DNA of 64,000 nt from positions 1 through 64,000 of IMG/VR virus record IMGVR_UViG_3300027782_005743, one strand, 5' to 3'. The translations under genes were made by a program, and so were the position numbers. This stretch comes from a virus. Shown piece by piece: positions 1,727-24,526 of the stretch; the stretch's first letter is position 1, and each line of letters starts with the position of its first letter. Below the pieces are notes generated by a model. It did no database searches and was not told the origin of the DNA. It worked only from the letters and a program-made list of their open reading frames with translations.

Positions 1727-3343
1727 ATGACAAAGTATATTAAACTATTTGAAAATTTTATACCCGAAGCACGCGAATCTGATTTAGAAGGTTTGGCTGA
1801 TCTGGGACTTGGGCCAGCTCAGTTTGAATGGGAGGTAGAATACGATGAGGACATGCAAAATATTGAAAAGTCTGATAGGCAAGAAATTTATGATTATGAA
1901 TCCCCAACCGGTGCTCACATTACTAGGGTTAAAGGTGTAATTGAAGCATTTCAAACCCAATTAGACATTTACTTTAGCAATGAAGATAAAATTCAAATGC
2001 ATGTTAAATTCTCACAACACCCTGGAGACAAGGGTCGAGCCGCTTTTCAAGTTAAGCATAATAGTAAATGGCACTCAGTATTTAACCCAATAGTTAGTTA
2101 TGATAAAGCTGAAGAATGGTTACAGAAATGTGAAGACTCAGGCTCAAGCGTTCAGCCAATATTCTATTATTACGAAGAGTTTTTAAAAGCCTTATCTAAT
2201 GATGAAGATTACCAAATTTATTGGACAATGGAAAATCAAGGTTTAAATATTACAACCAATGAAATGATGAAGCCTGACTATACTCGACTACAGTTATTCA
2301 TTAGAGCTTTACGTGATTTACCAATTGACTCAAATATAATACTTAAAATACGCCAACTAATTAATAATCTGATAATTGATCCTTATCATAATAGGATTTC
2401 TATCTTAACTGAAGTAGACCGTGGCTTTTCGGATATTCCAGGTATTAGTGAATTGGTTGCAAAATTTAGCAGACCACTTACTGAAGCTCGTGAGATTGAG
2501 CCACATGAAGAAGCCGAGTTAGCCAATATGAAAGACACAGTTAATGACATCAATGGCTTAATTGAATTGGGGTTAATTGATGATTCAGGTTATCGAAAAG
2601 AGATGGTTGCTATCAGTAAAGCCTTTAATAAATTTGTTAAGGGTTTAAACTTAGATCTTAAAGATCAAGCTGATCTTGACTTGTTAAAATCGCTTGGCGA
2701 AAAAGCAGGCCAAGATTCATTAATGGGATTAAGTTTAGCTGGTGGAAAAGCACTCGCCACAAAAGGTTTACATCTGGTTTCAAGTCCAACTCAATTGGCT
2801 AATGGCTCATTGATATTTTCAGTTGATCCAAATTACAGACGTAGCGATGGCTGGGGTATTGGATTTTTTCCTGGCCCAAAGGTTATTCGGCGTATGACCC
2901 CAACACAAATTAATCTTGGGGTTTGGTCAAGAACTTTAGGCTCAATGGATATTGCAATAAAACATTTTAGAGACACCACTAGTAATCTGGATTTTTATAA
3001 TAAAGCCATGTTATGGGCAGCTGACAATATTGATTTTGACCATGCGGTAATGTATCCTGAAAAGCATGTGTGGAAATATTATAAAAAGAAAAAAGAAACC
3101 CGGGATAAACGAACTGAATCAGATGACTTACGTGTACAAGCAGACGCAATTATGTCAGAAGTTAAGTTTAGCCCGTGGCAATCACCAATCGGCCGGCTTG
3201 CTGCACTTGAAAAATATATTGAAGCTTGGAAATTAAGACTTAAAGCTGCTCAGCTTGATAATAACGAAAAAGCCATAATTGATGCAAAGGACCAAATTGC
3301 ACATATGGAACTTGATATTGCTAACTCAAAGAACCGCAATTAA
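1727..3343 (+). CDS. Large tagged late protein, function unknown
   Basis: 538 residues. The N-terminus MTKYIKLFENFIPEARE carries the targeting motif with I-P-E as the likely cleavage site. The rest is mixed alpha/beta with a Lys/Glu-rich helical C-terminus (about residues 445-538) that could be a coiled coil. No enzyme motif is evident. It lies 20 nt after the previous stop and ends before a strong terminator. Its size recalls injected proteins such as T4 Alt, but I see no ADP-ribosyltransferase motif. Confidence 0.6.
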   Translation: MTKYIKLFENFIPEARESDLEGLADLGLGPAQFEWEVEYDEDMQNIEKSDRQEIYDYESPTGAHITRVKGVIEAFQTQLDIYFSNEDKIQMHVKFSQHPGDKGRAAFQVKHNSKWHSVFNPIVSYDKAEEWLQKCEDSGSSVQPIFYYYEEFLKALSNDEDYQIYWTMENQGLNITTNEMMKPDYTRLQLFIRALRDLPIDSNIILKIRQLINNLIIDPYHNRISILTEVDRGFSDIPGISELVAKFSRPLTEAREIEPHEEAELANMKDTVNDINGLIELGLIDDSGYRKEMVAISKAFNKFVKGLNLDLKDQADLDLLKSLGEKAGQDSLMGLSLAGGKALATKGLHLVSSPTQLANGSLIFSVDPNYRRSDGWGIGFFPGPKVIRRMTPTQINLGVWSRTLGSMDIAIKHFRDTTSNLDFYNKAMLWAADNIDFDHAVMYPEKHVWKYYKKKKETRDKRTESDDLRVQADAIMSEVKFSPWQSPIGRLAALEKYIEAWKLRLKAAQLDNNEKAIIDAKDQIAHMELDIANSKNRN

Positions 3344-8932: not shown

Positions 8933-8962
8933 GTGGGTCCTAGCAATAGAGACCCATTTTTT
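8933..8962 (+). terminator. Rho-independent terminator
   Basis: TGGGTC (8934-8939) pairs with GACCCA (8951-8956), followed by six T. The T run merges into a GGTATATTAG promoter-like element. Confidence 0.8.
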
Positions 8963-8972
8963 GGTATATTAG
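8963..8972 (+). promoter_or_regulatory. GGTATATTAG promoter-like element
   Basis: TATATT acts as a likely -10 hexamer, directly after a terminator and 24 nt before the ATG at 8997. Same element as upstream of several other units. Confidence 0.45.
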
Positions 8973-22337: not shown

Positions 22338-22886
22338 ATGCAAATGCTGAAATTTACACAATTTATAAATGAAGCTAATTTAACAGATAAGACTCTTACT
22401 GTTAAATTAGCCAGAATCCATGAAATTAAAAAACGCCTTAAAGAGCTAACTGCTGAAACCAAGTCAATTGAAGGTGAGTTAAAAGACTTTGATGCTAGTA
22501 TTAAACCAGTATTTGATGCAATGAAAACCTTAAATGATAAGTTAGCCTTAACTGAGGAATATGTAATTAAGATTACCAAATATGGTGGAGAAGGTAGTGC
22601 AGTTTCTTATGGTAAAGCCGTTGAACAAGCTCTTACTCAAGTTGATGAAGCTGCTCAAGCAATTATTAACGAATGTGTTAGAGTAAATACTGCAGTAACT
22701 AGTGTAAAACACTCTTATGAAATTCAAAAAGTTAACGAATCTAAATTATCTGATAAAGTAAAGGCAGTAGTTGCTAAATTATCTAATAAAATAAAGTCAG
22801 CAGTTGCAAATTTTAAATCAATATTTGCAACTAAGACAGCTAAGATCGATCAAGCTAACCAAAAATTAGCAGATATTTTAAAGTAA
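22338..22886 (+). CDS. Tagged coiled-coil late protein
   Basis: 182 residues. The tag MQMLKFTQFINEA aligns residue for residue with MKLLKFTQFVNE at 24578, so I keep the first ATG. The rest is almost wholly Lys/Glu/Ala helical heptads, probably a long coiled coil, as in prohead core or internal proteins. Inferred head-packaged. Confidence 0.65.
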   Translation: MQMLKFTQFINEANLTDKTLTVKLARIHEIKKRLKELTAETKSIEGELKDFDASIKPVFDAMKTLNDKLALTEEYVIKITKYGGEGSAVSYGKAVEQALTQVDEAAQAIINECVRVNTAVTSVKHSYEIQKVNESKLSDKVKAVVAKLSNKIKSAVANFKSIFATKTAKIDQANQKLADILK

Positions 22887-22995
22887 TTAAAATTTTAGCA
22901 AGAAATAATGATCTAAGCAATGAAGCCGGTCTTACTTATTTTTATGGATCTAAAGACTAATTAAAACCTTTTTTTAAAAGGTTAATATAATAACC

Positions 22996-23038
22996 TAAGA
23001 AAACCTTGAACCTAAAAAATTCAAGGTTTTTTGGTATA
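22996..23038 (+). repeat. 43-bp direct repeat, left copy (terminator plus promoter)
   Basis: Identical over 43 bp to 24075-24117. Each copy contains a CCTTGAA/TTCAAGG hairpin, a T run and GGTATA. The two copies bracket tRNA-Met, a homing endonuclease gene and tRNA-Asp. Confidence 0.9.
23002..23032 (+). terminator. Rho-independent terminator
   Basis: AACCTTGAA (23002-23010) pairs with TTCAAGGTT (23020-23028), with six T from 23027. It ends transcription before the tRNA cassette. Confidence 0.85.
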
Positions 23039-23043
23039 TTAAT
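23033..23043 (+). promoter_or_regulatory. GGTATATTAAT promoter-like element for tRNA-Met
   Basis: TATATT hexamer 12 bases before the tRNA-Met 5' end, fused to the T run of the preceding terminator. Confidence 0.5.
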
Positions 23044-23054
23044 AATATAAACAT

Positions 23055-23126
23055 AGCGGGTTAGAGCAGTGGTAGCTCGCGAGCCTCATAAGCTCGAGGT
23101 CGGGGGTTCAAATCCCTCACCCGCAA
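23055..23126 (+). tRNA. tRNA-Met (CAT), with initiator-like features
   Basis: The D-stem GAGC/GCTC, anticodon stem CGAGC/GCTCG with loop CTCATAA (CAT at 23087-23089) and a T-arm with loop TTCAAAT are all canonical. The acceptor AGCGGGT/ACCCGCA leaves an unpaired first position (A1-A72), and the D-stem has A11-T24; both are hallmarks of initiator tRNA. The three G-C pairs of initiator anticodon stems are absent, so elongator use remains possible. Confidence 0.9.
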
Positions 23127-23154
23127 CCGTGACTATTTTGGCATTTGTACTTAG

Positions 23155-23162
23155 ATAAATAA
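23155..23162 (+). promoter_or_regulatory. Late promoter box
   Basis: ATAAATAA 20 nt before the endonuclease ATG at 23183. Confidence 0.5.
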
Positions 23163-23182
23163 ATTAAAAGTATAAATCTAAA

Positions 23183-23815
23183 ATGTCAAAACAGCATAAG
23201 TACAACTACATTTATAAGACAACTTGTAGTATGACTGGCAAATACTATATAGGAATGCACTCAACGTTCAACTTAGAAGATGGGTACATCGGAAGCGGAA
23301 GAAGATTATGGTTGTCTATTAATAAACATGGTAAGGAAAATCATTCTATCCAAATTTTAGAATGGTTACCTGATCGAAGTTCTTTGAAATTAAGAGAGCG
23401 AGAATTAGTTAATGAGGAATTATTAAATGATTCAATGTGCATGAATTTGCAACTAGGAGGCGGCGGAGGATTTACCGGAGGTGAGCATGCTCAAAAATTC
23501 CATAAAGCCGGTAGGCTTGCTACAAATAAGGTCCTTCATGATAGACTTCAGAATGATGTTGATTATCGAAAAAGATTTTGTGAGTCAGTTAGCAACTCGA
23601 AGAAAGGAAATCAATTTTGGCTAAATAAAAAACACACTAAAGAGACTAAGCTGAAAATTGGAGAAGCTAATTCAATAAAACAATTGGGAATTGCTAATTC
23701 TCAATACGGAACATGTTGGATAACTGACGGTTTCGAAAACAAAAAAATAAAGAAAACCGAAGATCTTCCACAAGGTTGGTCTTACGGTAGAAAGACCCGG
23801 ATCCATGCAAGTTGA
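23183..23815 (+). CDS. GIY-YIG homing endonuclease (Seg-like)
   Basis: 210 residues. YIYKTTCSMTGKYYIGMHST (about 10-29) is the GIY-YIG core, with DGYIGSGRRL next and a conserved Glu in the LRERELVNEELL helix (about 74). The middle and C-terminal part hold DNA-binding repeats of the NUMOD3 kind (KKGNQFWLNKKHTKETKLKIGEA). Free-standing between two tRNA genes, it resembles T4 Seg endonucleases, which spread by cutting related genomes lacking them. Confidence 0.88.
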   Translation: MSKQHKYNYIYKTTCSMTGKYYIGMHSTFNLEDGYIGSGRRLWLSINKHGKENHSIQILEWLPDRSSLKLRERELVNEELLNDSMCMNLQLGGGGGFTGGEHAQKFHKAGRLATNKVLHDRLQNDVDYRKRFCESVSNSKKGNQFWLNKKHTKETKLKIGEANSIKQLGIANSQYGTCWITDGFENKKIKKTEDLPQGWSYGRKTRIHAS

Positions 23816-23907
23816 GCGCAACCCAAATTGCTCTTCAGGTAGATTTGTATGGATTAAACACCCCGTCACGGTATGCTCTAAGTGGCAGGAGTGAACTGAA
23901 GAGAAAC
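23816..23907 (+). other. Spacer with an 8-bp inverted repeat 73 nt across
   Basis: CTCTTCAG (23831-23838) pairs with CTGAAGAG (23896-23903). The span equals a tRNA length, but no T-arm or anticodon arm can be drawn on either strand. It may be a processing stem for the tRNA-Asp precursor. Confidence 0.4.
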
Positions 23908-23981
23908 GGACTGGTAGTTCAGCTGGTTAGAATGCCGCCCTGTCACGGCGGAGGTCACGGGTTCGAGTCCCGTCCAGTCCG
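23908..23981 (+). tRNA. tRNA-Asp (GTC)
   Basis: Acceptor GGACTGG/CCAGTCC, D-arm TAGTTCAGCTGGTTAGAAT, anticodon stem CCGCC/GGCGG with loop CTGTCAC (GTC at 23942-23944), T-loop TTCGAGT and G discriminator. No CCA encoded. Fully canonical. Confidence 0.95.
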
Positions 23982-24074
23982 CACATCATATTAGGGTCGA
24001 GCCGTATTGTGCCATGATATGAAATAGACTTGAGAGGATTAGAGACGGCCGTGACTACCTCAAGTCAAATTATT
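23982..24074 (+). other. Structured spacer after tRNA-Asp
   Basis: ACTTGAG (24028-24034) pairs with CTCAAGT (24059-24065) and encloses the palindrome ACGGCCGT. The stem lies just before a terminator, so this may be a small RNA or a 3' trailer. No gene seen. Confidence 0.4.
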
Positions 24075-24117
24075 TAAGAAAACCTTGAACCTAAAAAATT
24101 CAAGGTTTTTTGGTATA
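24075..24117 (+). repeat. 43-bp direct repeat, right copy (terminator plus promoter)
   Basis: Exact copy of 22996-23038. It includes the terminator hairpin 24081-24107 (AACCTTGAA/TTCAAGGTT), T run 24106-24111 and the GGTATAATAAC element (24112-24122) for the gene at 24137. Confidence 0.9.
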
Positions 24118-24136: not shown

Positions 24137-24526
24137 ATGACACATACAACATTATCAAACACAGCAGAGCGGTTAATGCAACTGCCAAAGGAAATTGAAA
24201 GCTTGCAGTATTCTATCCTAAAAAAGATGACATCATCTACTATAATTGCAGCAAGTGCTTCAAGTATTGAATCAAAGATTAGACTTGAAATTAATTCAGA
24301 AGTAGATGCAAACGGTAAAAAAGTTTACTCAAATGCTGAAACTCGTGGAGCTGAATTTGAAGAAAGAGCTCAATTTAATTCCGAGTTATTGGCAATTCGA
24401 GAAGACTATGACTCAATGCAAAGAGAGATTCAGGAAATGAAAATTCAGGTAGAGACCCTAAATAATGAACAGCGCAATATCCGTTCAATTCTGCACTTCT
24501 TTGCCGGCAGTAATGACCAGCTATAA
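24137..24526 (+). CDS. Helical phage protein, function unknown
   Basis: 129 residues, almost entirely helical and charged. KVYSNAETRGAEFEERAQ (about 62-79) resembles a motif in small phage proteins found near recombination or replication genes, but I cannot name the family. The C-terminal half is a likely coiled coil. It is driven from the promoter in the right direct repeat. Confidence 0.55.
   Translation: MTHTTLSNTAERLMQLPKEIESLQYSILKKMTSSTIIAASASSIESKIRLEINSEVDANGKKVYSNAETRGAEFEERAQFNSELLAIREDYDSMQREIQEMKIQVETLNNEQRNIRSILHFFAGSNDQL

Follow-up and report, generated by a model that had tools for sequence, protein, structure and literature searches.

Evidence for a SegB-family homing gene in an eroded phage tRNA array and for attenuator-like leaders ahead of such arrays

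Leader-peptide transcription attenuators of the trp and his type regulate amino-acid operons. In phage T4 the tRNA cluster has the order tRNA-Ile, segB, tRNA-Arg, RNA D, RNA C; the segB gene lies 41 nt behind a tRNA, and RNA C and RNA D are small structured RNAs. A hairpin and a late promoter stand ahead of both I-TevI and T4 segB (PMC2988022), the same arrangement as predicted at the locus described here. Published work links SegB to tRNAs of many isotypes, and T6 SegB amplifies a tRNA-Tyr segment via recombination at microhomology (PMC13096335). PeSLs are described as mobile promoter-terminator regulatory cassettes of T4-like phages (Arbiol 2010 and Comeau 2014, as cited in PMC4503421).

The window is the whole 64,000-nt stretch of viral DNA that was analyzed, positions 1 to 64,000 of IMG/VR record IMGVR_UViG_3300027782_005743. 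The original prediction placed a tRNA-Met, a GIY-YIG endonuclease and a tRNA-Asp between two copies of a 43-bp repeat, and all three were confirmed. Contigs compared with the window are designated by L numbers. The features of the locus are as follows.

22966–22995 (+), hairpin and promoter-like stretch AACCTTTTTTTAAAAGGTTAATATAATAACC; by-eye comparison with L005, L006 and L011 suggests that its position matches the promoter preceding the leader ORF in relatives
22996–23038 (+), repeat copy 1; terminator hairpin 23000–23030, then promoter motif TTGGTATATTAA to about 23041
23055–23128 (+), tRNA-Met (CAT); tRNA call, Rfam tRNA 64 bits
23129–23797 (+), insertion of 669 nt carrying the homing endonuclease gene; missing in L001
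23129–23182 (+), leader of the endonuclease gene; hairpin predicted over the ATG, with late-promoter-like GATAAATAA within it at about 23154–23162
23183–23815 (+), homing endonuclease of 210 aa, GIY-YIG type, SegB family; the final codons and the stop fall inside element X
23797–23907 (+), element X, a conserved structured RNA with five helices including a pseudoknot; no Rfam match
23908–23982 (+), tRNA-Asp (GTC); tRNA call, Rfam tRNA 69.9 bits
23983–24068 (+), element Y, a conserved structured RNA with two hairpins; no Rfam match
24075–24117 (+), repeat copy 2; terminator hairpin 24079–24109, then promoter motif TTGGTATAATAA to about 24121
24137–24526 (+), adjacent 129-aa gene, function unassigned; the anchor for finding relatives

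The homing endonuclease gene behind tRNA-Met

The ORF at 23183–23815 was identified as a homing endonuclease by its match to PHROG 314 (E 3e-33). Its best named-phage matches are T-even SegB-like endonucleases, and the alignment with T4 SegB (39% identity, 222 columns, 124 bits) indicates full-length homology. The score against the Pfam GIY-YIG domain model is below the cut-off. Residues Y11, Y22, E72 and N88 are invariant in 38/38 aligned relatives, T4 SegB included, and the catalytic residues are intact. Matches to Pizza6 PDB entries were dismissed as a repeat artefact.

A search of IMG/VR for the same hairpins returned one contig, L001, the closest relative of the locus, which has both repeats, tRNA-Met and tRNA-Asp, with 411 nt between the hairpins compared to 1079 in the window. 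The extra 669 nt of the window fill exactly the interval from the tRNA-Met 3' end to the sequence CGGATCC; ACC precedes both junctions, and the flanks of the insertion are 97–98% identical to L001. The endonuclease frame has lost its own stop and terminates within the flanking element X. Because L001 keeps both repeats and both tRNAs without the endonuclease, the sequence comparison points to a SegB-type homing gene of 669 nt, inserted at the tRNA-Met 3' end, as the mobile unit, and not to a repeat-bounded cassette.

The relatives of the gene were examined for their position with respect to tRNAs; 58 were retrieved, and 41 distinct genes were used for the distance count. The endonuclease start lies within 100 nt of a tRNA 3' end in 29 of the 41 (7.2 expected; median 52 nt). 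Many tRNA isotypes have such a gene behind their 3' end, at a spacing that hardly varies; close endonuclease relatives are often behind different tRNAs, and the host isotype switches 23 times across 31 labelled leaves. There are up to seven endonuclease matches per contig, some of them decayed, and leader-like stretches without an endonuclease persist in L019 and L094. The proposal that the endonuclease could drive spread is supported and sharpened by the empty site in L001, which lacks exactly 669 nt, and by the location of most relatives behind tRNA 3' ends. In the proposed mechanism, the enzyme would cut tRNA-array alleles that lack the gene, and repair of the break would copy the gene in. 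A different, unclassified nuclease-like gene lies between tRNA-Trp and tRNA-Gln in L019 (reverse strand, about 1809–2580), so that the arrays may serve mobile genes of more than one kind.

Predicted folds show that the leader hairpin fully pairs the start codon in 30/37 endonuclease genes versus 11/48 control genes, and the mean folding z of the leaders is −4.4 versus −0.1 in controls. The late-promoter-like motif in the leader hairpin belongs to the endonuclease subgroup of the window gene. The endonuclease would be made late because its ATG would be masked in the hairpin on read-through transcripts and exposed on transcripts from the late promoter inside the hairpin. The window gene thus resembles T4 segB in protein family, in its place behind a tRNA in a cluster with small RNAs, and in the hairpin and late promoter predicted before it. 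It differs from T4 and T6 SegB in phage group, in the identical terminator-promoter repeats on its flanks, and in having relatives that sit at the 3' ends of many isotypes, occur several times per genome, and leave leader scars.

The T6 precedent of tRNA-Tyr segment amplification (PMC13096335) suggests another role, in which a domesticated endonuclease would amplify the repeat-bounded tRNA segment when a tRNA-cleaving defence attacks. The gene does lie between 43-bp direct repeats, and its intact catalytic residues agree with such a role, but there is no tandem amplification in the window, and copies elsewhere number up to seven per contig with some decayed. The endonuclease looks like a selfish element in turnover because the sister L001 lacks it, its tRNA partner changes often, some of its copies are decayed, and leader-like scars mark places where it seems to have been lost. 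We consider domestication unlikely.

The repeats, the eroded array, and two structured RNAs

The copies at 22996 and 24075 are identical, as originally reported; they form a maximal direct repeat of 43 nt, 1079 nt from start to start, with exactly two copies within the window and 0 in 100 shuffles. Each copy contains a perfect 11-bp stem, a 9-nt loop (CCTAAAAAA), and a T-run. Chance or convergent terminators as the source of the two copies are excluded by the 43/43 identity, which includes the loop and flanks. The claim that each copy holds a terminator and a promoter stands for the terminator; the promoter motif is present, but it runs past the repeat end, with TTGGTATA inside the repeat continuing as TATATTAA at copy 1 and TATAATAA at copy 2. 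The window has eight occurrences of the motif GGTATA[A/T]TA and its shuffles none; the sites are 5' of genes or tRNAs. Another terminator hairpin, at 8935–8971 of the window, is fused to a TTTTTTGGTATATTA promoter motif and has a stem unlike that of the 43-bp repeats.

Relatives of the locus were found via the adjacent 129-aa gene (L005, L006, L011, L014, and L001) and via element X (L017, L019, and the MAG contig L094). The first group has 11–18 tRNAs at the same place in L005, L006 and L011, five in L014, and two in L001; the second has 17 in L017, at least 15 in L019, and two in L094. Conserved structured RNAs lie in the spacers between these tRNAs, and their neighbours differ from array to array. 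One hairpin precedes the array in six relatives, where the stem is CTCGAA/TTCGAG (CTTGAA/TTCAAG in the window) and the loop is unchanged; L094 has a variant. Because most relatives carry the hairpin once, before arrays of up to 18 tRNAs, these comparisons indicate that a phage tRNA array has eroded at the window locus to the present remnant, and they identify the 43-bp repeat with the hairpin at the front of the arrays. The stretch at 22889–22961 of the window looks like what is left of the 3' end of a gene; L001 and L094 have that gene intact 5' of the array. In the window, the gene at 22338–22886 now adjoins the stretch.

The original prediction treated the repeats as the bounds of a cassette that may be cleanly gained and lost. 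If the repeats were recombination sites, exchange between them would delete or move the tRNA-endonuclease cassette in its entirety, a behaviour proposed for PeSL promoter-terminator cassettes; PeSL-mediated shuffling is cited for T4-like phages (PMC4503421). The deletion of 1079 bp between two identical terminator-promoter copies is physically possible, and a T4-like phage could recombine such repeats. The relatives argue against this history. L001 has both copies and is missing the endonuclease alone. Single-copy relatives, which were expected as deletion forms, do exist, but their hairpin precedes 2–18 tRNAs in larger or different arrays, and they are not deletion products. No tRNA-free locus was found among the relatives of the adjacent gene, and no variant with a repeat-to-repeat deletion or exchange was found among the relatives compared. 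We regard recombination at the repeats as quite improbable. The repeats are like PeSLs in that a terminator hairpin is fused to a promoter and repeated around variable genes, except that the window promoter extends past the repeat. They are different in having two copies only, which trace to the terminator before a tRNA array, and in that no module exchange was observed.

The eroded array retains two structured RNAs, elements X and Y, that were overlooked in the earlier prediction. Nine sequences support the five helices of X, with four compensatory pairs; the pseudoknotted fold replaced an RNAalifold structure and accounts for the changes in L019 at columns 69 and 73. Element X is present in 5/5 distinct relatives found independently of X, and its model, run over the full length of seven records, matches each of them once. 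It precedes tRNA-Asp in most relatives and tRNA-Glu in L005 and L094, and it is kept even in two-tRNA remnants that have no isotype in common (Met/Asp in the window, Gln/Glu in L094). Element Y follows tRNA-Thr in large arrays and tRNA-Asp in the window. A group I intron or known ribozyme was rejected for these spacers, X and Y having no Rfam match. Both elements abut tRNA ends and would therefore be released by tRNA processing, and a function is proposed to that extent only. They are like T4 RNA C and RNA D in being small structured RNAs inside a phage tRNA cluster, and they differ from these and from freshwater-1 (RF02979) in that they match no Rfam family and their models have no match in the T4 tRNA region (L085).

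The arrays of the relatives contain several further elements. The tRNA-Asp/tRNA-Glu spacer of L006 (3072–3133) matches Rfam freshwater-1, RF02979, at 67.3 bits (gathering score 72), which puts this orphan RNA in a phage tRNA array. A tRNA-like element with T-arm and acceptor-like ends, uncalled by ARAGORN, lies before X in L006 (2679–2789), L011 (2678–2762) and L014 (4665–4775), with equivalents in L017 and L019; it is possibly a divergent tRNA or a tRNA mimic. Stop-reading anticodons occur in L019 (reverse strand, 3098–3175) and in the arrays of L039, L083 and L111 (tta called as 'Stop', cta as Pyl), and these are possible suppressor tRNAs. The motif GTTCTTTGACATATTGG, which resembles the boxA of rRNA antitermination, is mostly 11–18 nt before tRNAs (spacers of L005, L017, L019, L104, L107, L109, L112, L121, L128, and others). 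Of its 44 occurrences, 28 are within 60 nt 5' of a tRNA, and such zones make up 2.7% of bases.

Leader ORFs ahead of phage tRNA arrays

The hairpin follows a conserved, GTG-started ORF of 42–43 codons in five of the six single-hairpin relatives. This ORF was taken as the leader of the clade; automatic ORF picking took internal ATGs instead. The end of the leader ORF (CGAGGTTC, as in L006) is complementary to the 5' arm of the terminator (GAACCTCG), and the corresponding pair in L011 is CGAGGTTT/AAACCTCG. Folding predicts an antiterminator before the terminator 3' arm is made in 5/5 clade leaders, one pair of it, the eighth, covaries, and synonymous changes in the ORF are in excess (0.41 versus 0.23 expected). 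The ancestral hairpin would thus serve a leader-peptide attenuator as its terminator. With a ribosome that finishes the short ORF, the terminator would form and the array would remain off, and a ribosome stalled for a missing tRNA would allow the antiterminator to form so that the tRNAs are made. No leader ORF was found before repeat copy 1 in the window or at the corresponding place in L001 and L094, and these three have a promoter motif between the terminator and the first tRNA. The window lineage appears to have lost the leader and attenuation and has a promoter motif behind the terminator; the repeats would now insulate a two-tRNA unit with a terminator-promoter at either end.

Regions around endonuclease-bearing contigs were used as the set for assessing how general such leaders are. 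A terminator lies within 45 nt of the first tRNA in 19/50 arrays, compared to 6/191 interior tRNAs and 10/1410 random positions. Outside the clade, in unrelated contigs, each of the 12 terminators at an array start has a short ORF ahead of it that ends 15–40 nt before (0.5 expected), and a comparable ORF precedes 26/76 other terminators (Fisher p 1e-5); a control in which ATGs inside longer genes also counted (10/26) was dropped as too loose. Antiterminator complementarity in the non-clade arrays has a combined p of 1e-8, with 6/12 significant and 6/12 individually at p > 0.05. Sequences of the Bacteroidota-type consensus TAnnTTTG were seen by eye 5' of the ORF in several arrays.

The amino-acid diversity of the clade leader alone is mildly unusual only, so each leader was tested against its own array. 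Leaders were mostly picked by fixed rules; where two to three arrays offered several ORFs, length decided between them. Over 15 leader-array pairs, amino-acid coverage is 0.96 versus 0.73 for swapped pairs, and the enrichment z is 2.57 versus 0.01 for permuted pairs, with P about 5e-5, a value that is optimistic because some arrays share a contig or ancestry. The match persists without two clear homologues. Examples are the leaders MRTFGKYYYGKKSYKKQFIRIGNTMSKTQS for the Tyr/Lys array of L127, MFTTITILVLCLLSSVVLLRQESYDVIYCKA for the Cys/Val/Leu array of L143, and MKNFTHTQPQPQQHPQEVEWGKYV for the Pro/His/Gln/Asp/Glu/Val/Leu/Ala/Trp array of L137. Because one contig (L127 and L128) has three arrays with three different matching leaders, the match cannot be put down to genome composition. 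The combination of short ORF, terminator and matching leader was found in the following records.

L127 and L128, IMGVR_UViG_3300050015_000530
L143 and L124, 3300033049_000020
L137, 3300031578_000005
L138, 3300042261_001312
L140, 3300001335_000322
L122, 3300005613_000002
L107, 3300043568_002650
L110, 3300016484_000638

These leaders share with trp- and his-type attenuators a promoter, a short ORF, a predicted antiterminator arm in or near the ORF end, and a terminator ahead of the structural genes, and their sensor codons correspond to what the controlled genes produce. They differ in that they would control tRNA arrays and in that the leader carries the amino acids of all the tRNAs of the array, where the known leaders repeat a single one. 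No leader was found before the tRNA clusters of T4, Vibrio phage Bennett, Aeromonas phage 65.2, or Pectobacterium phage CBB, and Tenacibaculum phage PTm1 has no tRNAs; the leader system may therefore be confined to some, probably Bacteroidota, phages. No relevant paper on attenuators of phage tRNA arrays was found in the literature searched, in which subscription journals and preprints were thinly covered, and we know of no earlier report of leader peptides that match the tRNAs of their own array.

Another view is that the terminators at the front of arrays merely end the upstream transcript, that the arrays use their own promoters in the gap, and that the short ORFs are ordinary small genes. 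In favour of this view, the window, L001 and L094 have a promoter motif between terminator and first tRNA, some arrays have 27–57 nt of room, and short ORFs are frequent before terminators in general (26/76). However, the gap is only 7–17 nt in large arrays, antiterminator complementarity is enriched and the eighth clade pair covaries, and leader composition fits the leader's own array, which is unexpected for ordinary small genes. We give this explanation little weight. The attenuator reading is the probable one: many phage tRNA arrays would be gated by attenuators whose leaders are built from the amino acids of the array, stalling for those tRNAs would release the array, and the 43-bp repeat of the window would be a relic of such a terminator. 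The combined account, an eroded array with a SegB-family insertion at the 3' end of tRNA-Met, a homing gene expressed late, and an ancestral hairpin that served as an attenuator terminator, is one we hold with good confidence.

Implications for phage tRNA arrays

SegB-like genes show how arrays are remodelled, as a homing gene with a constant leader takes many tRNA 3' ends and leaves scars when it is lost. Elements X and Y are new candidates for conserved RNAs. The tRNA arrays of large phages are debated in terms of codon usage, translation after loss of host tRNAs, and counter-defence. Stalling at the leaders, if it occurs, could be triggered by a host tRNA-cleaving defence or by codon mismatch, for example. 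If the leaders work as proposed, the phages record which tRNAs they expect to run short, and the arrays would be induced on demand instead of being constitutive, which would tie them to tRNA-cleaving defences.
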